Assembly: GCF_016859285.1 (NCBI RefSeq)
Contig: NC_053414.1
Span: forward strand, 12,835,517 to 12,899,516
Direction: 5' to 3'
DNA length: 64,000 nt
Source: Xiphias gladius
Lineage: Eukaryota; Chordata; Actinopteri; Istiophoriformes; Xiphiidae
This document shows, piece after piece, positions 15,422 to 60,615 of the stretch (its first letter is position 1; each line of letters starts with the position of its first letter). The notes beneath the pieces are model-generated. The model saw only the letters and a program-made list of their open reading frames with translations, did no database searches and had not been told where the DNA came from. Position numbers and translations under genes: made by a program.

Positions 15422-17641
<2,220 letters not shown>

Positions 17642-26942: not shown

Positions 26943-27093
26943 ATGGATGAGGAGAAGGGTAGCTGTCGGTCCAGGGGTATGAGCACCCTGGAAAAATGTC
27001 TGATATTTCTCTTTGTGGCCATGACCGGCGCCTGCATCGGCCTCGTGGTCATCTACTTCATGGACAAAGCTGATTCTTCTACTCATGCAGAAG
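26943..27093 (+). other. Exon 1: cytoplasmic tail and signal anchor of the CUB/protease gene
   Basis: ATG at 26943 opens [18 protein letters not shown], then a hydrophobic run from Cys19 to Met40, then [10 protein letters not shown] before the first CUB domain. The basic residues precede the hydrophobic segment and no signal-peptidase site is evident after it, so I read it as a type II (N-in) anchor. An in-frame GTG nine bases earlier is not used as the start. The donor is AAG followed by GTGGGT. Confidence 0.75.
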
Positions 27094-30000
27094 GTGGGTG
27101 TGTATACGTAGAAAATGCATTGTCTTCTATTTTAATACCAACATGTATCTCTGGTACAGTGGTTAAAACACACTACGGACCTCAGCTGAGCAATAATCCT
27201 TAACATCACAGTAATATAGCGAAAAGAAAATTCTCAAACAATTTGCCTATGTCCATTACAAAAGTAGAGAATATTGCAACGGTAAACATTTCACAGGGAA
27301 AAGGAGCTGTGGGGAAATACAACAAGACAAGACTGTGAGGAATGTCGCCAGAAAATCTAAACTGAGGCCACTGGATCAGTGACTGAGCAACACCGAAAAA
27401 GCATGTTGTCAAACTGAACGTGCAGTCAATTTTAATCAATGACAAATGTCAATGTGAGTGGTTTTTCGCTGTCCACTGTATTGGGTGGAGAAAGTGATTT
27501 ATTACGACTTTGTTGGAGGGCAAACGGTGATCTGCACTGGGATTTTGCAGGTTTAGTGAAATGCAAACAGCACAAGAAATTATTTTTAAAAAAGAACCGA
27601 AAACCTCCTAACAATTTTTTCTTCTGTATTTTATGGCTCCAATTTGCATAATTTGCAACTTATTTATAATTTTCCACAAATTTTTCTGGAAAGACCTACA
27701 GGTTTCTAATTTGGTGCTTGCGAAACCCAAATGAGCATTCATCCATTATTCATTTATTATTGGAAGCTTGATCCTTCGTCCATGACGAATTTCACGCTTG
27801 CCTATACAAATTTCGTATGTTCACATGTTCGGCTGACCTGCGATGTAATGTCCACATAAACTCTACTGCGGCACATGTATTTGTCCAGCTGCCAGTGATT
27901 TAAACATATAGTCAGCACAGAGTTATGAATTCTTTGAGGTGCATAGAGTGCGAAAACATATGCACAGAAGTGTGGAGTCCTTATCAAGTAAGTAAGTAAC
28001 TGCAAAAAGAAAAAAATATGTATTGTTACACATACTGACAAGAATTTGAACCTCTGCTAGTATCCCATTTGTCTCAAAATTGTATCCCAAAAAAAATAAT
28101 GGTCATGAAAATGTAATTAATCTGACAAAATGTTTTGCATTTGACCAGTACTGAAAGTCTTATAGATGCAACTTGTCCTTGGACTGGAAATGTTCCATGG
28201 TCTTTTTAGTAGCAAAATGTGAACTGGACTTTTGAAATAAAATCAACATAGGAAATATAACTTGTCAGATAACAGATGTTGTGATACAAAAGATATGAGT
28301 AAGCAGTGTTTGTAGCTACCTTGAAAAGAAAAAGATCATTTTGGACACATAAAGACATCATTGGAAAATTTAAACACAGAGCAGATAATAGGAGATAAGC
28401 AGAAACAACCAGTACTTTATTATTACTATGATTTTCTACACCTGACCCCCGTACTGTATGAGCAATTTCATAGCAACGATGTATGTGTCATCACTACATC
28501 AGTAGTGTTCGCTGTGATAGCATACACCAAGTTTTTCAATTTTAAGAACCTGATATTTATTCTGGCTTTATGCAGGAAAAACTTTACTTCATTGTAAAAT
28601 GTCAGAGACTGCTTTATGAGAGAAGACACATTTCTGCTGCCTCATTTATTCTTTGGAAATAGAGGTGGGAAAATAGTTTGTGTTTGCATGAGAGGAGTAA
28701 AGTGGAGAAATTAATATCATCTGAACCACTTTGCTTTTAGAAGTACAACCCATCAAAGTCTTCTGCGCACCTGAATAAAAGTCTATGTGACAAGAGTGTT
28801 GGCAGATAGGACGACTACGAGGAGTTAGAACGTGCCCACTGTCCTCACTCGTTCCATATGATTTGTCCATAGTTGGATAAATTCAACAACAAATGAAAAA
28901 AGCAGTCTATCGTTATGAGATGCAGTACAAGGATTGCTGCCCCCAAAAAGAGATGTCTTGTTATTACATAACCGCACAACAATATGACATAAAAATGACA
29001 AAATATATTCCAGTTTTTTGTTGTTAAACACAGCTGCTCTCCAGACTCCTGAGCAGCAGCTGCTCCAGCCACAAAGGAAAACATGCTGCTACTGTGGATG
29101 GTGACACTTTGTGTTTGTGTTTTTGTGTTTTTTGTATAATCAATGCTGTTTCCTAGGCGTTGCAATTGATTTTTTCTTTTCACTGCAGTTACAATAAGGT
29201 GTTTTTCAATCACTTGAATTTCATGGTAAACATTTCCTCTCTTAACCTGCTGTCCGTTGTTTGTGCATTAATAAAAATATCATTACAATAATGTTTTTGT
29301 TGTGCTAGCGGCATGGCTGTATGAAGTGCAATGCTGGTCGGTCCACCATTTCAGTCCAGACAGAAATATCTCAACAACTGTTCAATGGATCGCCGTGAAA
29401 TTTTAGACAGACATCCATGGTCCCCAGAAGATAAATCCTACTGACTTTGGTGATCCACTAACACCACCAGCTGGTCGAAGACTTCTGTTATCCTGTGGAA
29501 ATATCTCGCCTACTATGGGCTTGTAATTTATGGCTTGGAGTGAAATGTCTCAAAAATTGTTGGATGGATTTCCATGAAATTTGGTAAACCAATCATGCTT
29601 CCCTCAGGATGAATTGGTGAGCCCCTCACGTTTCCTAGTGCCATCATCAGGTCAAAATTTCACTTCTTCCAACAGTTTGAATGGCTGCAAAACTCTTGAC
29701 ATTTCCCATCAGCCTCAACTGTTCTTTGTGTTTATTGCTAATAAGCAAATTCTGAATATGCTGGAATGCTTATGTTATCATTTAGCTCAAAGCACCACTG
29801 TACCTAAGTACAGTCTCACAGAGCCGCTAGCATGGCTGTAGACTCTTAGTGTTGAAAGAAAACAAATCTCTTTTACATAAAATAGAATTATAAAAACATT
29901 TAAAACAGAAATTGTAGGATCCTGCATGTGGTGAGTAAACAGTCAGTATGTTGCATGTTGTAACCTACATATTAGTTGAGGAGCTTTTTGTCATTTTGTC

Positions 30001-33000
30001 ACCAATACAGTTAATCAATTCACGGTACAAGCTGCTGTTAAAACAGGGTTTATGCTGCTGTAATTCCTAAAAAGATGACTAAATAACAAGTGTTTTCCTT
30101 TGTCGTACATTTCCAGGGTGTGGTGGTCCTCAGGAGCTGTCAGGAGAGTCAGGCACCTTCACCAGCTGGAACTACCCCAACAGCTACGACAACGGCAAGA
30201 GCTGCACCTGGCACATCAACGTGGACCCTGACAAGGTGACAGGGATCGTCATCACTGCTCTTCCAAACCCCAACCGGTGAAACCGTACAGTCTGTAGACT
30301 TACAGTCCCCTCTTTACACAAATAAGATCTACAGCCTTCATGTAAAGTCAGAAAAAATATTTAAAGTACTGACCGACCAGATTTAAATATTACTCAAGGA
30401 TAAGTCACTTTAATTGGATTGATAACCACTCCAGATAACATTTACTTATGTGGTCGACCATCCCAACATAACCATTTCAATATGGAGTAGCCTACTTTTT
30501 AATTTTACATCTTCTTTCAAGTACAGGAAACATGCCATGAGTGTGATGCCATTCATGAAAAGTAGTAATATTAAATTTTATTCATATAGCATCTTTCATA
30601 TACAAAATGCAGATTAAAGAGTGCTAATAAAGAGAAAAGAGCAGACAAGTTAAACAAAAATATTAAGATAAATTTATAACAAAGACTTGAATGACAATAG
30701 CCATAATCATGACTGTAACCATTTCCATCATCATCATCTCAATAACTGTAATCTTCAAAGATGGACCAGTGGTGTACATATTAAAAAATGGCAGTGGAGT
30801 ATTAATATCAGATCGTAGAAGCAGATAGTTCCACAGTTTGGGCTCAGAGATACAGAAAGCAGCTTTATTGTAGGTCTTAGTTTTTGGTAAGGTGAGCAAT
30901 AGATAGTGTTTATCATTAGATTATGTTGTGATTTTTATTTACATGACACGAGAAGACACTGATTGCGAAACACACAAGATTATTATCATTACTATAAATG
31001 GTCAGAAATAATTTTCCTCTTGAAAACCGCTTTCAACACATCATCGTATTTCTATTTTACAGGGCTGCGCAGATTAAAACAATTCAGTCATGTCTCTGTG
31101 TCAGACAGGGTCTCTCACAGTGTGTGTGCCTGGTGTTTAATCAGTAGAGCTTGTGAAGTTACTGTTGGGGAAACTGTCTCATGTGAGGCCAAGCAGTGGA
31201 GGACAGCTGGGGTGATCGCAGTGGCAGCGTCGTGTACAGATGGCTGCCTTGTCTCCTTCATTTTCCTCAGCTCTCCTCCCTACAACCACAAGCCAAAACA
31301 AAGTTCTTGATGCTTCTTTCTATGTTAGCATGGCTGCCTTCCTACCTGCCTGATGCAGTGGCTGCTTTTCTCTCTGTCTCTGTAGGTCTCTGTCTTCCTT
31401 CTGCTATCTTTAAACACACATAAACACGTCCAGGCACGTCCATACATGCGGTACATGCTCTCACGCGTGCACACACGCACTCGCATTTCACACCGAGCAG
31501 TCACTCTTGCCTTCCACCTATCTGCCTTATCGACTTCTCAGATTAAAAAAAGAAAGATGAAACACCTCTGCATGTTTCTGTTGCAGGTGATCCATCTGTG
31601 GTTCGAGGAGTTTTCTTTGGAGGACACCGCGCTCTGCACAGCTGACTTCATCACACTACAAGACTCTCTGGGAATCATTGGTAAAAATCTCATATTAATT
31701 CAAATCTTCAAAAGGGGCAAAAGAAATATTTAAAAAAAAAAACCAACACAAATATACAGACAGACAGACAGATAGATAGATACATAGATATTACACATGT
31801 AGAGCTATCCACTGGTCAAAGGCTAAGGGAATTGGGCTTTGATTTCATTCCCAAATCAGACTATCTATCCATGGACAGACTCAGCTAGTGAGTCACACAG
31901 TCCTGCTGGTCCACTGCACACTGCTCTACTTCCAGTAACACACACTCCAACACTAGTTCTCCAGCCAGACTGCAGAGTTCAAAGCAGTGTACTTAGTCAA
32001 AAAAAAAAAAAAACATGCTGGTTTTCAATTTGTTTGGAATGATCATTATCATGTATCCCCCATCTTGTGTTCTCTGTTAGTTACTAAGGGGCAAATTAAC
32101 CAGTGGCTGGGGTACGGATTCAAAGAAACAGAGCACATTTGGGACAGTAGTAAAAATGTTGTTAGGACACAAATTTAGAACCCTGGCAAGACACCGAGAC
32201 TGAAAGACATGCAAAGTGACTAAAAACGATGCGGCTGCATTATTTTGCGTCTACTTGTGGTCACTTGGTGTCACTTTGTAGCTGTTTTGCATCACTTTGT
32301 GGTCATTTGATTGACTTTCCAACAAGAAATGTTAATAGTCACTTCATGTAGATGTTCTGATAACAGGAAGCCAACTAACTATCACCTTCTTACTTTGGTA
32401 GAAAGGGCACCAAGGGTAGCTAGTCAGATCATGGGGGGGCCTGTGCTACCTTTGGCCAACCGCGTGGCCCTGCCTCTGAAATGAAAAGGCCTCACGATTT
32501 TCTGTCTTGACAATTAACTCTTCTTTCAATTGCAGAGGAATAAGCTGTGCAGTATTGTTCTCTCTTTGTACATAATTTCTGTGGTATTTGTAGGTAAATA
32601 CTGTGGCTACACCAAACCAAAGCCGGTGGTGTCACTGACAAACCACCTGACGGTCCACTTCGACACTAACGACAGAAAGACAGACCAAGGATTCAAGGCT
32701 CATTACCAAGCTGTGTCTCCAGAGCTCACACCCGGTAAGATGATGACTGGAAATCCATTTTAGCAAGAAAATTGCCTCAACTCTGACATAATGTTGGATG
32801 TCTGTTTTACAGTATATGATTGACCTAGAAAGTGAATGTGCTGGGTGAAGAGAGGGGTGGGAGAAGGGAAATGAAAATGGGGTGGATGGGAGTGGAGGGA
32901 GTGGGGATATATTGTGGCTATCTTTGAGGTGTCTGTGGAGCTCAAGTGCTCTCCATCCCTGCCGCCAGAAATAGCCGGAGCCGGTGGCTTTCTCCAAGGT

Positions 33001-36000
33001 GACCGGGGGGATCTGATGACCCCTGGCTTCCCTGAGCAGAACTACCCGAATGGAGCATTATACCAGGTACTGCAACACACATTAACAGCCCAAACGTGAC
33101 TGCTAGGGTGTGTAGCCACTTCCTGGAGTATCGTAGCTGACGAGCCACCAACGCTGACAGTTACAACTAAATAAGATCAAATATGAACGCCAATACAATT
33201 AATTCAGGTAAATTAAAAGGAGCAATACACTTGTTTGTTTCTAGTGTCGCTTGTTTACAAACGCCTACAAAACACTCAGAAGAAGCCCATATAGGCCATT
33301 TCAATAGTATGACTAGATGACTAGCAGTGGTGGTAGCCATCATTGAATAGACGTATCATAACCTGTTTACAGTATTTGAGAACATTACATTGTTGTCTGC
33401 TGTTAATATTTATATTCCAAGAGCAATGTGTCAGTTTGAGAATGGTGGCAGGTTTCAATGTTGTTTTTAGACTAGTTTTGAAGCTACATTTTTGTTTACA
33501 TTTGGATTTTACCTTTAATAAAGTACATTGATGTCGATGCTGTCACTTATTATGTAAGTCCATGCAAATTAAATCTAATGATTACAAAACAGGATATGCT
33601 TAGAGAAATAGAAGAGTTACAGAGGTTTCTTTTTTTGATTCCAAGAGAACTGCATTGTGAATTGTGTAAATTAACTGCAGCTCAATACCAGGCAGATGTC
33701 CTGAATATTATGCCAGACCTTATTACAGTTACCATCGTGTTGCACACAGTGTGTTAGTATTGATCAGCATGTGGTTGCAACCAAACCTTACGATTTCAGA
33801 TTAGCATCTCAAAGTAAATCCATCAGCTATGGATTTCAGCACAGTCACATTCACAGCGTTTGTGGTTTTGATCTGTAATAAATGCATCTAATTAAACCAG
33901 AGTCAATTTTGATGTCAGGGTTTGCATCCTGTGTTTGGATGTGGAGTCGTATGGTATTATTTGGCTGTCATTATGATTTCACCTTACTGTGGCTTAGCTT
34001 GACGTCTCACCGTCTGTCCAAACAGAAGCAGAATCAGTGGTAAAATTATGTATGAGTTACTGTATGTCAAACTGCAGCTCACGTTGCAACCATGAGACTA
34101 GACGTAGGAAAACACGAGGAGTGCTGCAGATAGCGGTTTGCTAGATCAAAGGGTTTTCTCTAGACTGATTAAAGAACCATCTGTTATAAACCCATGGTGG
34201 GTGTAGCCATTTGCACTCTTTTTGTTGTTTGAAATGAACTGCGATTTAATGGGAAAATTATTAGTGGAAATCTGTCTATGCTGGTAAAATTAATTGGCGT
34301 GTGTGTGTCTGTACTGTGCTTGTTTGTTGGATCAGTGGAGAATCACAGTGCCTGAAGGCGAGAGGGTCCGACTGACATTTACCTCCTTTGACCTGTTCCC
34401 TGAGGTCTGTGGAGACTATGTTCAGGTCTATGATGGCCACAAGGCCGGCTCTTCTTTAATGGGTAAGCATGACAGTATACATGTTCCCAGTGTGCAGTCC
34501 AGAAGATGAAGGGGAAAAGAAACTACTTTTAGATAAACTTCATCCGCTGTGCATGATGACGAACAGTGACTTTAAAACAAACCACAATATTTTCAGTCAT
34601 CAGCACAGTTTATTTCAAAGCTGGATGTGTGATTATGCAGGAAAGGGATATGTTAGAATTCAGAGTAGACTGGGGGCTTTGTTCAACATTAACAATGTCA
34701 ACTATGTGGGTCCATGAATAAAAGATTAGCTCAATTAAAAGTCTGAGAAGTTGTGCAATGGACAGAGCTTCTGGAGTCTATTTTAAACTTAATGAATTCA
34801 AATCTGTCTGCGTAGACTTAATTGTTAAAGCAGCACGGATGAGCTACAAATGTACTGTTTTACTGCCTATCAATTGTCTAAACAAGGACATAGGTTTGGT
34901 TTCACAAGTGGGGGTAGGTAAAAAAACAAAAACAAAAAAACAAAAACAAAAAAAAAAACACTGAAAATATATTCATATATATTCAATGTATATCAGTCAG
35001 CAAATAAACTGTGTATGTACAAAATTAAAGGCTATATTGATTGTGATATTATTTATTATTATTAATTCACCAGTGCCAATTAAAATTAAATTTCGTTTTT
35101 GGTCTTTTAAAATAAATATTGTACAGACTAAAATCGATCACAAAAATTCAACATCTGCATGAGAAAGAGACAGTGCCGTCTTTTACAGCGTTATCTTTGA
35201 ATACTCAGTTCTAGCATCTTATCATTGTATCAATCAAACTTTATTTGTATTGCACCTTTCATACAGGTTAGTGCAATTCAAAACTTTACAGATGACTGAC
35301 AAGCTGATAATATACAGTAATAGACAGTACAATGCACTCGAGCAAAGACAATAACAAATAAAATAGATGAGAGGGTGTAAAACAGTAGGTAGGAGCATAT
35401 TTTGAAAAGTGAGGGGGACATGTCTCCCCATCCCCAGTGGAAATTACACCCTTGTGTCTAAAACTGAAATTTGAGGATGTTGCTGTCTATTGGACAAGCC
35501 TGTGTGAATGTTTTGTCATCCATTAAAGGTAAATTCTGTGGGCGGACGATGCCAAAGCCAATGGAGTCCAGTAGCAACACAATGGTGGTCCTCTTCAAAT
35601 CTGACAACATGGTGACTTCAAAAGGATTCAAAGCTACTTACACAAAGACCAGCCTTCCACCTGTTGTTATTCCCACCACAACAAAACCCACACCCACAGC
35701 CACAGCCAGACCCACCACACAAACCCCTCCACCTCCTACATCTTCTGGTGAGTATTCTCTCCAAACCTATGTTGCTGTTTCATTTTCCCTCTTGTATACT
35801 TACAATAAACAGGTAAACTGGCATCTACTGTATATTTACTCATAATCCCATTACACAGTTTGGCTCAGTTGACCTTTTGAGCCAATGTACCCTTCCCTGC
35901 ACGTCTCTATTTTGATTTCAGTTAAAATATACAACAGCAGATATATTTGACTGCCACACTGCCAAATAACAGCATCAGTGTCAATGCAGCTGAACCAGCT

Positions 36001-39000
36001 TCCCAAGAAAACTGCCCATTACATTTTCCATTTTCTTTAGTTTACTTTGGATCTCAGCGATCACTTGAAAGTTAATACTGATGCACAATAAACTATGAGA
36101 TCATTATCTATGTTTTCCCATTGTCCCTTTGTTTCCTGGCTTCTTGATACATCTTACATAACTGTAATGATGAAGGTACTAGCTAATGAACCTGTGAATG
36201 GGGCATCAAAGTAAGCTGGTCCTTATCAATTGAAAAAAAAAATCACACACACAGATATACATAGCTTTTGATCAAGTTTCTCTTCTAAAAACAATTTGCA
36301 TAATGAGGTGTGAATACGGTAAAAATATTGTTTTATGCATCACTTCCTCTATTGTAATTGGGCAGGAAGTGGTGGTCCAGTAATCCTCCACGGGCGCAAA
36401 GGAGTGATCCAGTCCTTGGGTTTTCCAAATCCATATCCTGCTCATCTAAACAGTTCTTGGAAGATATCTGTGCCCAGAGGATTCCTGGTTAGACTGCAAA
36501 TCACTGAAATGGCCATCACAGGAGAGACTGGAAATTGCAAAGAGGACAAACTGATCATCTCAGATATTTATAGCATTCTAGGTGAGCCATAACCTAATCT
36601 TTTACTGTTGTACTCTAGTTATACTTATTTCCAGTACTTTAATTTGTTATTATATGAATATATATTAGTCAGATTTGTTTATCAGAGTTCCACAAGCCTG
36701 ACATTTTGCTTATTTTTGTACCTTCAACTTGCTGTTTGACCCCCAGATGTGTCTCAGATAACCTTAGAAAATCGATGCTGCTTCTGCTCTTTCAGCCATG
36801 TCTGTCTTTGCAGGGCCAGATTAGCAGCCGGTTTGGAGAAGGGGTTATAAACTCCCCTACCTCTTGCACTTAGAATTTCACACAGCAAACAAGCCCTCAT
36901 TATATATGAGGACTTTGGCAGGTTTTTGGTGGACCCTCCAAGATTAATAGCTCTAGAACTACAGTATAGCTCAATATCCATCCCCTGCTGTAAAACTGTT
37001 GATTCGGATCTTCTTTGCAAAGAGCCCAGCAAACTATCAATTACCTCTCTTTATTATTGACTCCAGTGGCTGCAGTGCGGCTGATACAGCTTTATTTATT
37101 GCTGAGACATCAAGGACTAAAGCACTGAGGTGCTAGCACACGTGTCATGTGAAACACACTCAGATAGGTGACGAGAGGGTTTTAGTGGTGCGTCCCATTA
37201 GTTGATAGGGTACGAATCCGTGTGCAAAATGCAGAAAGAAATGAAAAGCAGAAATGAGAGGAAGCGGCTAAAGTTCTGTTTGGAAACCCAAGCCATCTCA
37301 AAATGAGATGTAATTTATAGAAGATGAAATAAGATAATCTTAAACTTAAATTCATAAGCAATATAATTATTTCTATTTTATTTATTTAGTCATTTAAACA
37401 GATGACTTCCTGTAATGGGAAAGGGCTGTAATGCTGTTGATCCCACTGAGAATGAACTCATCAGGCTGCAGCTTTCCAAAGCTTTTAAAAGCTTTCAGCT
37501 CCTTGTTTTGGTTTACAGCTCGCAACGAGTCCTCCGACCTAAACAACCATACAGGTTGTTTGTGCCTACCCTCTGATACGACCCGTAGCAGCATCTGCTC
37601 AATTAGCACCCGCACAGCAGCCAAGAGACATGCCAAAGATAAACAGTTAAATATCACTGTCGAAAAATAAATGACCAAATCTGTTATGGTGGGTAAAGAT
37701 TTTGTTAAGTTTAGGCACAGAAACGACTTTGCTAGGTTTAGGAAAAGATCGTGGTTTGGGTTAAAGCAAGTACTTCCTTAAGGTTAGAGGACCTTTGTTG
37801 TCATGGTTACAATACTAAACACGTGGTTAAGGTTAGTGAACGATTGTGGTCATGGTTAAAAGAAACAGCGCTGACACTCGGTTTGACATGGGAAACAATC
37901 AGAAACGACTTTTTCATCTGTAGTCCCCGGAGAGATGTTACAAAGTTGCCCTGAGGAAAGAATATAAGATTAAAATAACAGAGTTATTTGGATCATCATG
38001 AGCACGCAGAGCAATAATAAATAGAGAAGAGATTAATAATGTTAATTAAAAACATCATACAGGTCACCATTATATTACATAGTCAGGTACTATTTAAAAC
38101 ATGCAGCACAGAGGCATATAATACAAGACATGCAAAGCCATGAAATGAGGAATTTTAATGTCAATAGAAATATGGATTAAGTAAGACAGCATTGTGCTGC
38201 TTTATTAGACACTAACTGTAATAGCCTCATTCATTGATCTGCATGCATTTGCAGAATTACACATTAAATGTTACTGATTGCTAAAGTGCTATCCTCTTTT
38301 CCACAAAAATACCGTATCTCTTCCTCAGAAGTTCATTTAGCTGCTTGACCTGTTGTACTAAAGAGCAGCATTTCAATTAATGTTAGCTAACATTACCAGT
38401 TAGTGTTATGTTTTGTGTTCCGAGGCTCTTCCAAGGTTCCAGTGTTTTTGCACCTTTCTTTGTGTTTAGTTCATAAGTAGATGATGTTCAGTAGCTTATT
38501 AAGTCACTCGCTTGGGGTCTTGTGGTGATACACACACTTATGTACACCCGGTGGTGCTTATTAACAGTTTAGCTGCATCCTTTGAACCATCCCCTCATCC
38601 CTCACTCAACTCTCTTCACCCCCCCCCACGTCCAGGCACACACTGTGGCTACATCCTTCCCCCAGTGGTGGTCAGTGCCAGTGACACAATATTTGTCACC
38701 TTCCAGTCCGACAGTCGCCTCACAGACCGAGGATTCTCCGCCAAGTGGGACGCTGTGTATCCTGAGGATATCACAGGTACTGAGGACTGACAAACACAGC
38801 CACGCTCACCCGCATGGGCGCACAACACACACACAGGAACACACTCACACCTGAGGCGCGCCTCACTGAAGCAGCTCAGCAGCTCGTTAAGAGTAACCAT
38901 AAAACGCCTCACTCCTCTGTCACACATTTACGAAAGCAGCAAAGTCGTTGCATAAGCACTGTGAACAGGTCAGAGTACAGTGTGAAGCATAAAAAGCAAG

Positions 39001-42000
39001 ATAAAAGCTCCTTTATCTTTTCTTTATCATGACTATCAGGCCAGAAAAAGACTTGAGACCCTATGTGTGGTGGTGGAAGAAGTACTTTACTTGTGTAAAT
39101 GTAGCAATACAACAATGTAGAAATACTCTATTACAAGTAAAAGTCTTGCTCTTTACATAGAATACACAAATATTATCAGCAAAATCTATTTGTGTAACAA
39201 AATTAAAAGAAGTAATTATACAGAAGGTATTGATGCATTTTATATGCATTATCATGTAAGCAACACTTTGTAGCTGGCGAAGGTGCAGCTAAGTTTCAAA
39301 TATTATAAATTGTTGGATAGTCTAATTTATAACAAAATCCTTCATATTATATTAGCTGAATAGTATTTTGTATGTACATTTTTAATCTGCAAAGGAGAAA
39401 TCATAGCTATCAAGTAAATGTAGTAAAGTACAACGTTATAATATATTCCTCTTAAATCTAATGAAGAAAAGGAAAATATGTGGTAGATAATATCAAACTT
39501 TTCTCAGTTAAGATACAAATACCTGAAAACTGTATCTACATACAGTACTTTACTAAATGAAATTAGTTACTTTCCACCTTTGCCCCTGTTGAAAATAAAA
39601 ACCAGACATGCTGGTGTCAATGTTTTATTACTTTTTTAAAATTACTTTTCTTATACATGCTTCAGCGTTAATTGCTTTTCTCTAAATGGAGTGACACATA
39701 GCGTTTCTACTTTAGCATAAACCCATGTTCAGATTTTGTCATGATGAGATTGTGCGTTTACTCCTCGAGACTCTCGCACTCTCACAGGCAGATACTGTAG
39801 CTTGTCTACACTTATCCAGTTACACAATCACGCAGCTAATACAGTTTCTCGATCACTCCCTCTTCCTGTTTCAGAAATCCAGGGCTGTGGCATTTCTTCC
39901 AGAGAGGAAACAGGGGTCATCAAGTCCCAAAACTGGCCTATGAACTACAACGCTAACACTGAGTGCATGTGGAACATCGCTATGCCTTTGGGAAAGAAAA
40001 TCACACTGACGTTCACCCATTTTGACCTAGAAGCCAAAGATATCCTAATGTTCAAATGCTATGACAACATAATGGTGTATGACATCAATGCTCTAACTAA
40101 TGCGCTGATTAAAAAGCACGGTAAGTTGGTTTGTGGAATAAAAAACAGTAGCTACCAGCTGAGCCCAAAACCATTTGGATCTTTCATGACAGTCAATCAC
40201 ATTGAAATCAAATAATCAAAAATAATTAAATTAACCCAGGTTTTAATTAATACAACCGTGTATCTACACTGTTCAAGTACTGATCACTGTTATAGAGAAT
40301 TATAGGCCCTCTGTATCTCTTTATTTATGCTGGACAAATTATTCTCTCAATCCCCTGTAGGTCCTTTTTGTGGGACTACGCTGCCTCGTACCATTAAGTC
40401 AAAAGGCAACAGGCTGGTGATTCGTTTCCATACAGACTTGTTTACTGAGGCCAAAGGCTTCAGGGCCTACTGGACCACAAACCCCAGTCTGCCTGTTCCC
40501 ACTGAGCCACCTGCTCAGCCCAACCCCTGGGATAACATCACCATAGGTAAAGCATCTGCGTCAGCCTGATACAGTTTGCAAACATCTTCATTGAACTACT
40601 ATGTTCAAAACCACACCAATCTGTATTTTTCATATTAATAATGGATCAACTGTTGATTTTAAAACCACAGAGAATTATCACCAAGTTCTGCAGGTCACTT
40701 CAGCTCTACAGAGCCCTTTAGCCTCTTTTAGTTGTTTGTTTTGGTTTTCTGGCACACAAGTCTACTCCCATCAACCTCATTTCCAAACACAGAAAGCTGC
40801 TGTGAATATTGACATAACTCAAGAGGACACAAACACAACTCAAAATGAAGGCTAATATGCCACACATTCGCTGAAACAACTTTGTAAGGCAATAATATAT
40901 CACTTGTTGTGTTTTCAGCTTGGTCTGTTTCCCCCGGCTGGCCAAAAAATAGCCCCAAATAACAGTTAAGTCAGCTTTGACAGCTGCAGCCCATTTCACA
41001 TAGCTGCATGCATGATGTAGCTTTACATTTGATATTTTGGGTTCCATGATTTACACGTCTCTAGCTATATTATAATGCACTGTCATCAGGTTAACATAGC
41101 AGTATTGTCCTGTCACCAATCACAGTGACTGACATTTAGTTTCAAACAGCTCCTTAGAAGCTGCACAAAGGCCTGCCCTATATTTATGTGAGTCACGCTT
41201 TCTCCCACCCTCACCCCTTCTTTGTACTCACCTCCCTCATGCTGCCCCCCGATATGTGCAGTAAAACAAGGTGATTTGTTTTGCTGAGAACACAATGTGA
41301 AGTGGCCTGGTGCGTCACTTTCTTTCCTTGCTGGCTGTCACCTGATTCCCATTCTTCAGCCTGCAAGGAGCCCCAGGTGGCCCAGGCCACTGCCGAGCCA
41401 ATTCCTGAAATGGAGTTTTATAGATGGACTCTGCTGCCGTCCCGGTTTATTTTCCACCCAGGCTCTGACCAGGGGTGGCCTGTGTGTCAGGTGAAGGTAG
41501 GAAAAAGAGAGATGAATGAAGAAAATGTGGGATCTAATTTATATCTTTATGCATACCATGATGTCAATTCGGGACGGATTATTTGTGTGCAGCAGGAGCT
41601 TCATATTATGTTTGCATGAAGATACACTGAATACATTACTGCAGACAAATAGATTAGGGGAAGCCAAAAACAGAGGGACACAGTTCACTGTAGCCAGCAG
41701 TGTCAATCTGGTGTGATTGGAAAATTATTTTAAAAATACTAATCAGAGCACCAGAGCCAATAATTGAAAGCAACTTTCCTTCAACACAAGAGCTTATCTG
41801 TTAGCTGCAGATACATACTGTATATTCAGCCTTTGTTTATACACACACAAAGCACAAACAAATGCACACACGATCCGACAACCAGACCCAGGATATATTA
41901 CAGAGGTTTCCTTTCATTTCCTAGACTGGCCCAGTACATGTGGCAAACCAGCCATTCCTCCTGCTGTTGTGTCACGCATCGTGAACGGAGAGCCGGCCAG

Positions 42001-45000
42001 GCCACACTCCTGGCCCTGGCAAGTGTCCATGCAGGTGAGAATCTCCGCTCGTGAACACTGAAAAGTCACAGAAAGATAGAAGTAATTACATCAGAATTCA
42101 AAGTATAGAATAACGGTGATTTCAAATGTGTAAATTTAGATACAGTTGAACCTGAAGTTACCGTTGTCCTTTCTATAAATCATAATTCATCAACTGACTA
42201 TATCTAACCCTCAAAAACCGGCATAATGATCAGTGCTGACTTTCTTCTCTGCTTGTTGGTGTGTGCTTGTTTCAGGTCTGGCCTGCTAGTCTTCTAGAAC
42301 CCACATTCCTCCACACCTGCGGTGGTACTCTTATCCATAAGAACTGGGTACTTACAGCAGCCCACTGCTTCATAAGGTAAATGCTCTGTTTCACCATCTT
42401 CACATAAGCGCATGTAAAATGAAGGGCAAATGGAAGCTGCTAAACTCATTCATATAAAAAAGGGGCTAGGTACAGTAGTTAAGGTTTTAAATGCCACTTT
42501 TTATTCTCAGACTTCCTGGAAGCCCATTTGCGTAATCTCGGGAGGCAGTTATTATTGTCTGTGCTTTCATTCCGGGCTTATTACAGTGCAAGTGCAACGC
42601 CTTGTTAGAGATGCCTCTCTGCCTTGGCTAATGGTCTTCAGTGCCGTGTAGAAAGGTAAATGCTGGCACGCTGTGGAGCCTTGTGCAGTTTATATGGTTT
42701 TTGAGGAGGATGTATACAAGGAAACTTGCCAAATGTACTGCATCACAGAGGTGCGGAGCAGTTTCAGTCAAAAACAGTGTTTACTTCCATTACATCCAGA
42801 ACATCCTGTTGGTTTATACAGTATGATGCAGTGACCCTGACAGGTATCTCAAGGTGGCCTGTATATTGTGTATTCACTGTAAACGGGGAAGTATTATTAA
42901 TATTGATTAATCTGCTGATTCCCTTTCCAGATATGCTGATGAGCTGCAACGTTGGCGGATGTGCCTTGGCAAAAACAACCTGACCGACACAGAACCAAGT
43001 GAACGCTGCTTTAATGTGACCGGTATCTATCGCCATGAGGGCTTCAAGTATCCCACAGTGCCCACGGTGGAGTTTGACATTGCCCTGGTCAGGCTGGACG
43101 GAGAGGTGATACCCAGTGATGAGATCGCTTGCGCCTGCCTTCCCTCCGAGGAAGAAGTGCTACCTAAGGGCAAGATGTGCTACGCCACCGGCTGGGGAGA
43201 TGAGAGTGGTGAGGTTTGAGTTTCACGTTCATTAGCAACCTGCCCATGCAGTTCACATTTGTATGTTTGTACATATATATAAAACTCTAGTCTCACCTTT
43301 TGAAACTAGTTTAAAGTCATATTTTATTCAGTGAAATATTTCAATAATGCACCACCTCAGGAGACACTCACATCTCATAATGTTTTTGCTGTTGTAATGC
43401 CATTAAAAATTCATTGTTGCATAGTTTGCATGCCCTCTGCTGGACTTAATGTGTAAATTACCTCCTATGTTTATGCTGCTACGGGTATTAAATTTAAGTT
43501 TCTTTTATAACAATCTATCTGTGTGTTTATAGGTGATTCACATAATCCTAAAGTTGCAGACCGCCTTAACCAGGTCGCCTTGCCTGTTGTGCCTTATGAC
43601 ACCTGCAAGAGGATGGATTATTGGTGGTTCCAGGTGAAGACCTCCATGATCTGCTGTGGTTATACCCTGCCTGATGAGCTCAAGTCTGTCTGTCAGGTAA
43701 AAGAAGACCTACAAGAGTAAAAGACAAATAGATACAATGGTTTTACACCATTCTGATCATCAATGAGATGAAAGTTTTTTCACATATCTAATTTTACACG
43801 GATGGTAAAAAATCCTCCTGATGGTGTTTTTGATGTTGTTTTAATGACTTTGATTTGCAGGGAGATTCAGGAGGTCCTCTGGTGTGCCAGGATACCCCAA
43901 GTGGCCCTTGGGAAGTACATGGTATAACCAGTTTTGGCCCCATTGGATGCATTATGAATAAGAAGCCCTCCGTGTTCACTCGCTCCTCTGCCTATCTCCC
44001 CTGGATCAAAAATGTCATCCGCAGAGACATCTACAATGAGCACAGTACGAATCCAGCTGGTCTGAACTGACCCACTTTGCTCAAAAACTAAATGTGGTAC
44101 AAGTCAGATTTTTTTTTTTTTTTGCTGGTTTTCAACCTCTCTTCTCCCTGTCTAGCATCTGGGTGTGGAGGGCCAAAGTACTTGACTGGTGGAGGTGGCA
44201 CTGTGTCCTCTATGGGTTACCCTGGCAGCTACATCAACAAAGCCCGCTGCCATTGGAACATCCAGGCACCTGTTGGCAAAGTGGTCCACTTCCAATTCCA
44301 CAATTTCTCCCTGGAGGAGAGTCAGATGTGCTTGAATGACAAAGTCAGCCTCACAGACAGAATAGGAAATCTAGGTATGTGTATATCTGCTTTCTTTTTA
44401 CTCTCCAGCTGATGGTAAGAAGAAGTTAAAAAGTAAAAAGTCAGAAAAGACTTTTCTGAGTTGCTCTTTGATATGATTACTTACAAAACCTTGAGCACAA
44501 TAACTGCAGTCTATCATTTTGCATGAAGGACATCTCACAAAAAAGTCTGTTGACAGTCAACTGACTGCCATCTATGCTAACTAGGACAGGTTTTTCAATT
44601 CAGGGCAATCATCTTCAGAGGCCAGTCCAAAAAACACATCCACATATTAAGAAACCAACAAGCAAAAACTACAAATTACAGGATATGACTGTAACATCTT
44701 ATATTAAAATTAAGAAAGGAATCCACAAAATACAAATCTGTATCTTCACATATAATGCTTCAAGAATATGTAAAGTCAAATAAACAAATCAAAATTAATT
44801 CTTCTTGATCTTTCAAGTCAGTGTATGAAAAACAATGACAATATCAAAAATGACAGGGCAAAAATTAAAAAAAAAAGAAAAACTTTGACAAAAAGAAAAA
44901 ATGATAATCCGTCCCAGTCAATATCACAAACACAATCGCTACATGCATAAAATGTGACAACTCTATAGCAAAAACATGTTTGTTACGGAGTAAATGTATA

Positions 45001-48000
45001 TAAAAAGCCACCAGTAGGGTCTGGACCCACAAAGAAGCAAAAACATTGTAAAAATTGTCTGAAGAGATCAAGTGAATGCTTTCCCATTCACTTTGTTTTT
45101 ATGTTTGCCTGCACTTCACAAGAGTAGGTGTGTGTTTCACTCTTCGGTTTTTTAATATGCAATAAAGTGACATATAAAACACACTGAATGCTAATTTCCT
45201 ATGTCTCAGTCTTAAATCCCACACATACGAATATATGTCATGAATGTATAATGTAAAAAAAGGATAGAAAGAAGCAATAAAGAAGTAATAAAGATGTTAA
45301 GAGACTTAAACACCATACACAAACACAGGACAGAGGTTCTCAGAAAAGTCAGGCTAACACTTTCTTCATTCTCACCTCTCCTCAGGCACCTACTGCAGCA
45401 ATGTACCCCCTAAAGATCTGGTGAGTGATGGAAACACACTTGACATCATCTTCTCCTCCAATGACAAGGTGGTGGACACAGGCTTCACTGCCACCTGGAG
45501 GGCAGTGGACCCTACAGAGGGTAAGACAGGAGAAAAGTATACCTGACAAGACACTGGGTGAACTATTCTCTAGGCAAAACTAATGTTCTTTTCGTTTTTC
45601 TTTCTCTCTTCTCTATTGTCCACACATACACATGCACGCACGCACACACACACACACACAATCACACACAGCTCCTTGTGGAGGAAGCTTCAGCAGTGAT
45701 CACGGTGAAATAACCTCTCCTAACTGGCCCAGTGACTACCAAGCCCTGTCTGTGTGCACATGGCGTATCACCATTCCTGTAGCAAAAAGTATCAACATAA
45801 CCTTCACTCACTTTGAGTTGCAAGCTGTAAATATATTAGGACGCTGTGTGGACTATGTGGAGGTCTTCGATGGAGAAACCATGGTATCGCTAGGTTGGTT
45901 ATTGTACTAAAAATGCTATTTTGTCCATTTTGTGTTCTGTTTTTTTTGCAAGTATTTCCTTTACAGTGTGTAGTGTTGTCAGTATCATTGTCTTAGAGGT
46001 TGTTGTCATTTTGCTGTGCAATGATGAAATAACTCGTATTTTCTTGTCTGTTGTTCAGGTAGATTCTGTGGCTTTGCACCTCCCCCCACCATCATCGTCT
46101 CGAGCAACACAACCGTCATTCGCTTCCTTAGTAATGGAGCCAATCAACAGCAGGGTTTTCGTGGTTACTGGACCACTGATGCCAGTGTTATCCCAACTTT
46201 ACCTCCTCCACCTCCCAACCCATGGGACAATATCACTATCAGTAAGTGTAGGCCTAGCCCAGCTCACAGCAGCCCTGTATCTCTGACGTGGGGTCATATG
46301 TTGTGATCTAATGTGGAGGTTCCCAGTTTCTAAACTGGTGCTTTTTTGGTTTTGTCTCCTTCGTATGAAATAAACGGCAGCAGGATATGAAACTGGATTC
46401 TCTGTTTTCTGATTCTAAAGTCTAATTTAATCCACCACTGACTATACCTTTACCTGTACAGGGCAGTTTTAAACGTATTAGTGTTTGTTTTTCATTGTGT
46501 TTATTTGCAATTACAAATGTAACACTGCTTTTGTTATCCTGTGTACACAAGGGACCCATGTAAAGTAGAGTGACATTCTTTCTTCGAACCACCCTGTATA
46601 AATGCAGGTTAAATTAATTAATGAATGATAACGGATGATGGCTTATTTATAGATAACTGAATTGTACATTTTCTCTTCCCAGGCTGGCCAGAAAATTGTG
46701 GACATCCAGCAGTGAAACCAAATACAGGAACCCCAAGGGTGGTTAATGGGGTGGAGGCAATACCCCACTCCTGGCCCTGGCAAGTCTCCATGCAGGTGCT
46801 GTCACCTCCTCTATCTCTGTGCCTGAATGACTATGAGGGAAAGAGAAGAGCTTTTATTTTGTAAAAATGTATTTCTCTTCCCCAGGCTTCACCAATGATG
46901 CCCATACCTTACATGCACGGTTGTGGAGGCTCTTTAATTCACAAAGAATGGATCCTAACAGCTGCTCACTGTTTCATGTTGTAAGATATACCTACAGACA
47001 GACCTACAGTACATGCCATTTTAACAGCCCACTGTTCTTTTTAAAGCGGCTATAATTGATATTTTTATGGTAATAATGCATCAGGACAATGTGATATGTG
47101 ACAAAGTGTCATGCATAGTGATGAATTGACAGAAAAGTATCACCTGAATCTGCAGCTCCCCCAATTTTTACAGAGCTTTATTGCAAGTTTCAGCTCATTG
47201 TTTCGCTGTCTGGTCCCCACCTTTGCTGTTTTGGTTCACTCTCACCACTGTTAAACTGTTGTTGTCAACCATGGCAGTCAGTTGTTTTCAACAAAAAACT
47301 TCTCAAAAAACCTTTTGAACATAGTTAAAATATTTCCGTCAGGTGTTGGTAGAGACCAAAAACAGAGCTAAAACACACATTAGCCAGGTGGAGAGAGACA
47401 TGACTCCAAATGAATTTTAATGTTCCACTGTAACTGCGTGATGTATAAATGAGGTACTGTTGATCACAAGTTCATATCAACTCAAAAGGAGATGTTTTTA
47501 CAACTTGTTTTTGCTGTCCCCAAGTGGCAAAAGAACAGTCATTGAAGGTTTAAAAGCAGCTCTTTGAAACACTTATTTTTCATCATTTTGTCTTGGCTAA
47601 AACCTTGCACAACAGCCATAGGAAAAAGTAAAACAAGTTCTGATTTTCTCCTTCACCTGTTTTCCAGCCCACTGAATAAACCCTCCTACTGGCGCATGTG
47701 TCTAGGGAAACACCACATGAACTCCTCCATGGATGTTCCCTCAGCAGAAGAGTGCTACAAGGTGGATGGTGTCATCCGGCACAAGGGGTTCGTCTACGAG
47801 CAGGATAAAACTGACATCACCAACGACATAGCCCTGGTGCATTTGGCTCAGCCTGTCAATATGACGAAGGAGATCAGCCCCATCTGTCTGCCCAAACCTG
47901 GGGCTGTGATGCCTGCTGGGACACCCTGCTTTGTCACCGGATGGGGGGACGAGAAAGGTAGAAGTGATCAAGCATTTAATTATCCTGTGAAGGACCTATA

Positions 48001-49203
48001 GTTATAACGCAGCACCAGGAACTAGAGGTAACTGTAGTTGTGGAAGTAGGTGCCGTCTGTGCTCCTAAAATTGTATGTGCCAGTGTGGAGTTATTGTGTA
48101 AATGTGTGAATCCAGTTTTCTTACCCCTTGTACTCTTTTCCTCTCTACTTTTTCTGTTTTTCACACTCCATAATGAGTATGTGACTTGAGGCCAGCAGCA
48201 GTGATGGCCTTAGGTTTATTGATACAATGAGTTTACTAAATATTAAAATATTTACAGGCAGGTGTGTGATGCTGTTTGACCAGCTTGCTGTGGCCTTGGC
48301 TTGATTACTAAAGATTAAGAGAGTTTGGGGGTTTCAAACTTCTCCTTTTCACTTCTGTCTTAGGTAGTCTGTTCCCGAAAGTGGCTGAGAAGCTAAATCA
48401 GGCAGCCCTTCCTATTATTGACTTTCAAACCTGCAGTAAACCTGCCTACTGGTGGGATACCCTCAGGCCCTCAATGATCTGTGCTGGATATGAGTCCCCA
48501 GATGAGCTTAAGTCAGCCTGCCAGGTGAGAGGACGCATCCAGAAAAAATAACAACTGTTTAAATTGACAAACTAGATTTTTATTAGGAGAGGATGGTGAA
48601 TGTTTGTTGAAATCCCCTCCATGCTTTTTCTCAAACATTATATAAATGATCTCGCCCCTAATGATTAAGTTGTCTGTTGTGTAACATCCAGTTAAGTGTT
48701 TTGTTTGTGATCAGTCAGCCTTGATTGCAAATGGCTGCCCAGTTTTCAGACATAATTGGACAACACTACAGACAACAGAACATAGGAACATTACTTGTTT
48801 GCCATAATGTGCAGTACAGGAATTTCAGTAGAGCTTCATAAAACACAACACTGATATTTGCCAGAAACAACTCTGTCAGGGTTTTGATAAATATTGACCA
48901 TTACAAATTGTAGGGCACAGAGATGATTTATAGTGTCTGTCAATATCAAATGCTCGCCAATGCAACCTCTTACCCTTACACTAAATTGTTGCCGATTTTC
49001 TTCAGGGTGACTCCGGCGGTCCTTTCGCCTGCATGGCTGCTGGAATCAACACAACCTGGGAGGTTCATGGTATCGTTAGCTTCGGACCACGCGGCTGCAT
49101 CAAAGACAAGAAACCGTCTGTATTCACCCGTGTCTCTGCTTTCAGTGACTGGATCAACAACAACATCAAGAAGTTTTTATATGAAAGTGGCAAAACTGAC
49201 TAA
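26943..49203 (+). CDS. Ovochymase-like type II transmembrane protein with six CUB domains and two chymotrypsin-fold proteases
   Basis: Twenty-five exons join to one open frame of 1396 aa. Exons: 26943-27093, 30117-30235, 31587-31680, 32594-32734, 32969-33066, 34336-34462, 35529-35747, 36366-36581, 38636-38776, 39875-40120, 40361-40546, 41925-42034, 42276-42376, 42931-43208, 43533-43696, 43861-44044, 44156-44374, 45386-45520, 45672-45893, 46059-46241, 46683-46795, 46886-46980, 47668-47957, 48364-48524, 49006-49203. Every junction keeps phase and uses GT-AG. Residues 1-18 are cytoplasmic, 19-40 a signal anchor ([20 protein letters not shown]), then CUB1 about 51-165, CUB2 169-285, Pro/Thr linker 286-316, CUB3 316-435, CUB4 436-560, protease 1 598-858, CUB5 859-976, CUB6 977-1095, protease 2 1131-1396. 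CUB-protease polyproteins of this kind are ovochymases and oviductins, which act on egg coats; tissue and role here are unknown. A membrane anchor is unusual for that group. Automatic annotation could split the gene at exon 16. Confidence 0.85.
29303..29850. repeat. Teleost MITE-like repeat with GCTAGC-GGC ends
   Basis: Bounded by GTGCTAGCGGCATGGCTGT and GAGCCGCTAGCATGGCTGTA. The interior has paired stretches such as CAACAACTGTTCAATGGATC and AAAAATTGTTGGATGGATTT, each followed by a CATGAAAT/CGTGAAAT-like block. This is a familiar abundant fish repeat; it lies in intron 1 of the CUB/protease gene. Confidence 0.65.
30575..30905. repeat. Partial SINE/LINE-tail type repeat
   Basis: TTTTATTCATATAGCATCTTTCATA start and AGTTCCACAGTTTGGGCTCAG interior resemble the family at 9405-10120. 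It is truncated and diverged, and lies in intron 2 of the CUB/protease gene. Confidence 0.5.
35229..35345. repeat. Short SINE/LINE-tail type repeat fragment
   Basis: ACTTTATTTGTATTGCACCT then CATACAGGTTAGTGCAATTC, the usual head of fish repeats of this type. In intron 6 of the CUB/protease gene. Confidence 0.45.
37686..37952. repeat. Teleost GTTTAGG/GGTTAAGG-containing interspersed repeat
   Basis: Repeated short blocks (TTAAGTTTAGGCACAGAAAC, CTAGGTTTAGGAAAAGATCG, GGTTTGGGTTAAAGCAAGTA, GTGGTTAAGGTTAGTGAACG) spaced about 35-50 bases apart. This is a known style of fish repeat that looks minisatellite-like but is dispersed. In intron 8 of the CUB/protease gene. Confidence 0.55.
39066..39582. 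mobile_element. Tol2-like hAT non-autonomous element, copy 1
   Basis: Starts GTGGTGGTGGAAGAAGTACT and ends AGTTACTTTCCACCTTTG, inverted ends of the GGTGGAAAAAGTACT type found in Tol2-related hAT elements. The interior AATACTCTATTACAAGTAAA followed by AGTCTTGC is shared, in the opposite orientation, with the element at 54698-55841. No transposase. About 515 bases, in intron 9 of the CUB/protease gene. Confidence 0.7.
44045..44070 (+). other. Intron-retention extension with in-frame stop after protease 1
   Basis: If the GTACGA donor is skipped, eight or nine codons follow exon 16 and end at TGA 44068-44070, giving an 866-residue product with a single protease. The intron is only 111 bases (44045-44155). 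No AATAAA is seen within it, so such a product would come from intron retention, not from early polyadenylation. Confidence 0.5.
44156..49203 (+). other. Module III: CUB5-CUB6-protease 2 (exons 17-25)
   Basis: CUB5 begins [16 protein letters not shown] and CUB6 begins [14 protein letters not shown]; both keep four cysteines. The linker again ends NPWDNITI, then [10 protein letters not shown], with activation at GTPR-VVNG (Arg1130/Val1131). Triad: His1177 (LTAAHC), Asp1234 (NDIAL), Ser1334 (GDSGGP). S1-pocket equivalents are Ser189 (KSACQGDSGG), Gly216 (VSFGP) and Ser226 (KKPSVFTR), the same as protease 1. The protein ends [19 protein letters not shown]. Exons 17-25 reproduce exons 8-16 in order, phase and approximate length, so this is a tandem copy of module II. 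Confidence 0.85.

Positions 49204-50377: not shown

Positions 50378-60615
<10,238 letters not shown>

Follow-up and report, generated by a model that had tools for sequence, protein, structure and literature searches.

Ascidian ovochymase has been described as a signal peptide followed by a protease, two CUB domains, a second protease, three CUB domains and an inactive protease (PMC9265791), and mouse OVCH2 as a secreted protease with C-terminal CUB domains (PMC10850435). Polyserase-1 is membrane-bound and combines three protease domains with an LDLRA module, its S1 domains being related to the type II transmembrane serine protease (TTSP) and tryptase families (PMC1435904), and the TTSPs are called trypsin-like (PMC10376093). 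These papers, as well as the salmon and Xenopus studies cited below, are used here for part of their text. We analysed a stretch of 64,000 nucleotides of the Xiphias gladius genome (NC_053414.1, positions 12,835,517 to 12,899,516, forward strand), hereafter the window, and in it a gene for a protein with six CUB domains and two S1 proteases, P1 and P2. We propose that this protein is a membrane-tethered, trypsin-activated, two-headed elastase of the fish gut epithelium, a reading to which we give a probability of about 0.4.

Judged from its sequence, the window protein shares parts with ovochymase, OVCH2 and polyserase-1 and departs from at least one defining feature of each of those tested. 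CUB and S1 domains in one chain are common to ovochymase and the window protein; however, the catalytic domain leads in the reference orders given in those parts of the ovochymase and OVCH2 papers (PMC9265791, PMC10850435), while CUB pairs lead in the window gene. With polyserase-1 it shares tandem S1 domains in one polypeptide, P1 and P2 lying in one frame, but profile scores (below) do not show the kinship to TTSPs and tryptases. An N-terminal anchor and a C-terminal S1 domain are common to the TTSPs and the window protein, whereas P1 and P2 lie beyond a 100/99 branch from matriptase-like and TMPRSS-like sequences; SEA, LDLRA and SRCR domains were not among the eight Pfam families found at E ≤ 0.001, which were only of the CUB type, the trypsin type and DUF1986. 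Towards pancreatic elastase and chymotrypsin-C (CTRC), the two proteases are 44-48% identical to bovine CTRC and pig elastase 2, have the same propeptide cysteine as CTRC and are sister in the tree. The solved elastase and CTRC zymogens, however, are secreted one-domain proteins, and P1 and P2 add an extra cysteine pair, CUB domains and an anchor. A description of this domain order was not found among the papers listed in the literature searches, as judged from titles and the beginnings of abstracts and with most subscription journals outside their scope. The original prediction held that the combination matches no family that can be named; this stands for the order, which is neither that of ovochymase nor that of a standard TTSP, and not for the catalytic domains, which are elastase-related and carry Ser189.

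Gene model and domain architecture

The gene was rebuilt from the sequence. Its 25 exons, between positions 26943 and 49203 of the forward strand, join into 4191 bases, i.e. 1396 codons and a TAA stop codon, without internal stops, and both counts are exactly those predicted before. The introns have GT-AG borders (24/24) and the phases are consistent across all 25 exons. A Pfam scan of the whole protein gave six CUB stretches (E 4.1e-149) and two trypsin stretches (E 1.6e-118), and together with the gene model it reproduced the predicted order of a transmembrane (TM) segment, CUB1, CUB2, a Pro/Thr stalk, CUB3, CUB4, P1, CUB5, CUB6 and P2. The evidence for this architecture is strong. The exon of the anchor has a phase-1 end, and phase 1 also borders the CUB pairs and P1 on both sides (phase 1-1 modules). 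The features of the gene, all on the forward strand, are:

26943..27093, forward: exon 1, encoding one TM segment (21 residues) after a short cytosolic tail of net charge 0, and ending in phase 1; from hydropathy and first-exon scan, topology predicted
30117..32734, forward: exons 2-4, CUB1, 4 Cys; from gene model and Pfam
32969..35650, forward: exons 5-7 (5' part of 7), CUB2, without the first Cys pair; from gene model and Pfam
35651..35747, forward: 3' part of exon 7, most of a 34-residue Pro/Thr/Ser-rich stalk (14 Ser/Thr, 10 Pro), whose last two residues are in exon 8
36366..38776, forward: exons 8-9, CUB3, without the first Cys pair; from gene model and Pfam
39875..40546, forward: exons 10-11, CUB4 and Pro-rich linker, end NPWDNITI; from gene model and Pfam
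41925..44044, forward: exons 12-16, protease P1; from gene model, Pfam, PDB search and alignment
44156..45520, forward: exons 17-18, CUB5; from gene model and Pfam
45672..46241, forward: exons 19-20, CUB6 and linker, end NPWDNITI; from gene model and Pfam
46683..49203, forward: exons 21-25, protease P2, stop TAA; from gene model, Pfam and PDB search, re-found by spliced alignment from P1
49218..49223, forward: polyadenylation signal AATAAA, its first base lying 15 bases downstream of the end of the stop codon

A candidate 26th exon at 41360-41490 has one open frame and AG/GT borders, but it was dropped, as its inclusion disrupts the phase at the junction with exon 12.

In the hydropathy profile the top twelve windows of 19 residues start at residues 14-25, which is the only TM-sized peak, and the TM segment was taken as residues 19-39. 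Over 15 residues, the N-terminal flank has a charge of +2 and the C-terminal flank one of −2. An in-frame TGA precedes the ATG of exon 1, with 48 bases between them, and G is found at −3 and at +4. We scanned the 12.4 kb from an upstream GPRIN open reading frame (ORF) to exon 2 for exons that combine an ATG preceded by a purine at −3, a run of hydrophobic residues and a donor in phase 1, and exon 1 (two start codons, one donor) was the sole candidate first exon; such a candidate appeared in 1/100 first-order Markov controls with a 19-residue window and in 9/100 with a 12-residue window. Owing to its 21-residue hydrophobic run and the +2/−2 flanks, exon 1 suits a type II anchor. The features of a TTSP, namely an N-terminal signal anchor, a short cytosolic tail and a C-terminal S1 domain, are thus present, the topology by prediction.

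Catalytic residues, activation sites and disulfides

Both catalytic triads are intact. P1 has the activation site R597/IVNG (the slash marks the cut), the triad H646, D699 and S800, and S794 as the equivalent of Ser189; in P2 the activation site is R1130/VVNG, the triad H1177, D1234 and S1334, and the Ser189 equivalent S1328. KKPSVFT is found at 225-226 in both. Asp189 is the mark of trypsin-like specificity, and it is absent from the two heads, which have Ser at this position; this predicts elastase- or chymotrypsin-like cutting, while the R/IVNG and R/VVNG sites predict activation by a trypsin.

The propeptide cysteine and its usual partner (Cys1/Cys122) are kept in both heads, as Cys585/Cys719 in P1 and Cys1117/Cys1254 in P2. 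Chymotrypsinogen is the model for a propeptide cysteine that holds the activated head, and by analogy the activated heads should stay tied to their CUB arms via the predicted disulfides Cys585-Cys719 and Cys1117-Cys1254. P1 and P2 share an extra cysteine pair (661/676 in P1, 1192/1210 in P2) which the four other aligned sequences lack; by its position we take it to sit near the calcium-binding loop of elastase, where it may serve as a staple. P1 alone has two further cysteines, 717 and 784, without equivalents in the other aligned sequences.

Relatives of the catalytic domains

In the PDB search, P1, P2 and a P1+P2 profile all had chymotrypsin-C and the pancreatic elastases as their best solved relatives. 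The profile scored 238 bits with CTRC, 188-226 with elastases, 184 with hepsin and 163 with tryptase, and ovochymase was not among the 60 PDB matches listed for each of the three queries.

The own genome (690.8 Mb, 1298 contigs) was searched with P2, and gene models were made with a spliced aligner, which in a control run recovered the five exons of P2 with P1 as query, with one donor shifted by 6 bases. The matches scored were the best 150 of 353 for the S1 family, 150 of 318 for the CUB family, 140 of 252 for the P2 query and 88 of 227 for the CUB query, and the S1 and CUB lists were crossed by eye. Among 28 locus strands modelled, L010, L015, L024 and L025, with partial or doubtful models, were left out of the tree, whose 28 rows comprise P1, P2, 23 own-genome rows, some of which hold doubtful exons, and three PDB chains. 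A PDB search identified L018 as matriptase-like, L028 as TMPRSS-like and L009 as a chymotrypsin; the TTSP-type rows are L018 and L028 by that search and L023, L026 and L030 by tree position.

P1, P2 and locus L004 form a clade of their own (100/96), outside the elastase/CTRC clade proper (100/97) and beside it. A branch with 100/99 support separates these two clades from the 13 remaining rows, among them L018, L028 and L009. A TTSP origin of P1 and P2, i.e. their grouping with L018, L023, L026, L028 and L030, is worse by 77 log units, and the approximately unbiased (AU) test rejects it (p 2e-14). The tree position and this rejection indicate a TTSP-like anchor without TTSP-like catalytic domains; judging from the sequence, the anchor is common with the TTSPs and the catalytic domains are on the elastase side.

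Among the own-genome matches listed, the closest relative is L004 (contig C9, minus strand, at about 6823.7-6827.3 kb), with 50% identity to P1 and 48% to P2. It has the same phase-1 entry into DWP..CG, here from a signal-peptide exon, and five protease exons like P1 and P2, but it differs from them by the signal peptide and in that no CUB domain was found within 28 kb. It has one protease domain, Ala at 189 and no extra cysteine pair. L004 thus appears, by sequence, to be a one-domain secreted elastase-related protease. P1, P2 and L004 have a single exon (278, 290 and 281 bases) where the elastase-type locus L006 of the same genome has two (129 and 137 bases). Spliced alignment of CUB domains around L004 gave scores of 96-104 over 28 kb on many tiny exons, which we read as noise.

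CUB domains and internal repeat

CUB1 and CUB5 are 43% identical, as are CUB4 and CUB6, and each of these is the closest pair; P1 and P2 are 53% identical and their exon phases run parallel. From these values, together with the extra cysteine pair common to both proteases, we read the gene as one in which a CUB pair would have been set before an elastase-related protease and the unit then repeated. A DNA signature for WRMCLGK had two exact matches in the own genome, in P1 and P2 only, compared to none for the reversed control. With the CUB query no second gene of the same kind was found among the 84 own-genome matches listed, the next best by E-value lying on contig C14 with 36-40% identity. 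The best solved relatives of CUB1-2 in the PDB search were cubilin and PCPE-1, which are binding proteins.

The two CUB domains that flank the stalk, CUB2 and CUB3 (32969-38776), both lack the first conserved cysteine pair, which CUB1, CUB4, CUB5 and CUB6 keep.

The salmon ovochymase-2-like transcript

An 'ovochymase-2-like' (ovcm2) transcript was measured by reverse transcription quantitative PCR (RT-qPCR) in hindgut RNA of Atlantic salmon, where it was among the 3/5 TruSeq-only genes confirmed by this method as significantly different between two flesh-colour phenotypes; according to its abstract, the study saw the immune response, oxidation-reduction and the transport of metal ions change (PMC8285899). 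Our comparison with salmon ovcm2 is one of primer sequences. The pair of 19-base primers fits CUB6 of the window gene at 46121-46183, in the right order and in frame, with 8/38 mismatches, of which 5 are silent; the primers encode RFLSNQ and YWTTDP, compared to RFLSNG and YWTTDA in CUB6, with 5/6 residues alike in each. For other placements of the pair, the lowest sum of mismatches was 12 for the window's opposite strand and 11 for 254.7 kb from other loci of the own genome; 20 shuffled windows gave 12-14 at best, and a sum of 10 was obtained at an overlapping site which uses the same place for the reverse primer. The reverse primer taken alone has 2 mismatches at CUB6 and 4 at CUB4. The controls in other own-genome loci and in shuffled windows strengthen the match, and the primer sequences are good but not full evidence that salmon has an ortholog which is transcribed in the hindgut and bears a name taken from ovochymase.

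The family is therefore probably already in databases under the misleading name 'ovochymase-2-like', and the earlier suggestion of an undescribed fish protease type was too strong. The same prediction took substrate and tissue as not visible in DNA; the S1 pocket residues and the salmon link now give a first direction. On ovochymase in fish intestine or enterocytes, only PMC8285899 bore on the question in the literature searched.

Proposed mechanism and alternatives

The domain order, triads, activation sites, Ser189 and tree position are read from the sequence, and on them we base the following proposal. One gene would give a type II membrane-anchored, two-headed serine protease. It would have arisen from phase 1-1 modules, an elastase-related protease with an upstream CUB pair forming a unit that was repeated, and an extra CUB pair, the stalk and the anchor being placed in front. 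Both heads would be made as zymogens and cut by a trypsin-like enzyme after Arg597 and Arg1130; with Ser189 they would themselves cut after hydrophobic and not basic residues, so that they should not self-activate. As each head would be bound to its own CUB arm by a predicted disulfide after activation, the active enzyme would stay on the cell surface, in the predicted topology, and the CUB arms may bind substrate or partners. Tissue, activator and role are what we infer: the most likely site would be the apical surface of the hindgut epithelium, where lumenal trypsin would switch the enzyme on, and the role that of a brush-border elastase in terminal protein digestion or in trimming surface or lumen proteins.

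The protein could otherwise be a membrane-anchored processing enzyme without a digestive role, which at epithelia might trim, for example, mucins, immune proteins or growth factors, the CUB arms serving as receptors; we hold this possible but doubtful. The likeness of CUB1-2 to binding proteins fits such a function, as do the difference of the salmon hindgut transcript between flesh-colour phenotypes and the metal ion, redox and immune changes reported in part of that study (PMC8285899), whereas two heads with a pocket of the elastase type would go well with broad cutting. A fish counterpart of ovochymase, that is a secreted polyprotease of the egg or perivitelline space with exon 1 as a cleaved signal peptide and heads released by processing, seems unlikely to us. 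In its favour, ovochymase likewise joins CUB and S1 domains in a single chain, and Xenopus ovochymase, in the part of the paper used, is chymotrypsin-like and activated by a trypsin-like enzyme (PMC13079451), which matches Ser189 and R/IVNG; moreover, zebrafish perivitelline fluid holds something annotated as ovochymase, and the salmon transcript carries this name. However, that transcript was studied in the hindgut, the ascidian ovochymase leads with a protease as described in part of PMC9265791 while CUB pairs lead here, the hydrophobic run, 21 residues long and positive-inside by its flanks, fits an anchor, and the chain has no RXXR site and one dibasic site, between P1 and CUB5.

The locus could also hold two transcripts or two genes, one ending after P1 at a stop codon in intron 16 and the other comprising CUB5-CUB6-P2, a case named beforehand as one that would overturn the single gene. 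Read-through of exon 16 does reach a stop 8 residues on, but intron 16 is 111 bases long, has neither AATAAA nor ATTAAA and leaves little room for a promoter, and exon 17 continues in phase. The short intron lacks a polyadenylation signal, while the gene has an AATAAA behind its last stop codon; two separate genes divided here are therefore unlikely, and the two-transcript reading as a whole is in our view very improbable.

Several points weigh against the proposed anchored elastase or parts of it. The gene model was built from genomic DNA alone. Exon 1 could encode a long, cleaved signal peptide, above all if translation starts at the second ATG (26979), and an unspliced exon 16 adds 8 residues (44045-44070) up to the stop codon at 44068-44070, so a retained intron 16 giving a one-headed form, CUB1-4 and P1, is possible. 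The repeat pattern is broken by CUB2 and CUB3, CUB3 being closest to CUB2 (36%) and CUB2 to CUB6 (37%), and CUB1 and CUB2 each hold one more intron than the other CUB domains. The tree, which carries out the phylogeny proposed with the original prediction against elastase, chymotrypsin, matriptase and a TMPRSS-like row and places P1 and P2 beside the elastases, holds neither ovochymase and oviductin rows nor a polyserase row. Within it the grouping of P1 with P2 has a support of 67/8, and that of P1 with L004 fits 0.89 log units better (AU p 0.58), so the tree does not support L004 as the outgroup to P1+P2 and L004 could be a derived one-domain copy instead of the ancestor type; the extra cysteine pair common to P1 and P2 speaks for their grouping. 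The salmon link comes from two 19-base primers, the forward one of which, taken alone, has 6 mismatches in CUB6 and fits the window elsewhere equally well or better (best 3, on the minus strand). RT-qPCR on whole hindgut names no cell type, and low expression is reported, in the part of the study used, for a gene group including ovochymase-2-like (PMC8285899).

Beyond this gene, we suggest only tentatively that bony fish hold a separate class of surface digestive proteases, an anchored, trypsin-activated double elastase on the gut epithelium, module-shuffled from an elastase relative and hidden as ovochymase-2-like. If true, it would be the mirror image of enteropeptidase, a surface enzyme activated by trypsin rather than activating trypsin, and with two elastase-like heads carried by CUB arms it would bring to the cell surface a cutting specificity different from that of the TTSPs, which are trypsin-like in the part of PMC10376093 used here. 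It would also correct an annotation pointing to eggs although the salmon transcript was studied in gut. As a case of module shuffling, it would be one in which a one-domain relative with the same exon junction, L004, is still in the genome.

Neighbourhood and further observations

Besides the gene, the window holds:

174-398: end of a mitochondrial carrier (Mito_carr; 174-650 UCP-like by eye), upstream of the gene
15437-17641: GPRIN-family ORF, upstream (GRIN_C, E 1e-51)
50378-60653: downstream gene, containing a RhoGAP exon at 60336-60650

The start of the downstream RhoGAP gene resembles, as we take it, that of FAM13A. Human OVCH1 and OVCH2 presumably have other neighbours than the window gene, and the locus therefore suggests neither. 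Searches gave no NCBIfam family for P1, no Rfam match in the window and no relative among 184 pattern matches in viral contigs; among 35 pattern matches in GTDB contigs there was one weak S1 match (26%). A long GT dinucleotide repeat lies at about 52625-52720 of the window. In the own genome, the sets of S1 matches at C22:14203229-14206982 and C9:12837218-12840255 repeat at 2805 and 1977 bases, respectively, mostly with equal scores, and are either very recent tandem copies or an assembly duplication.

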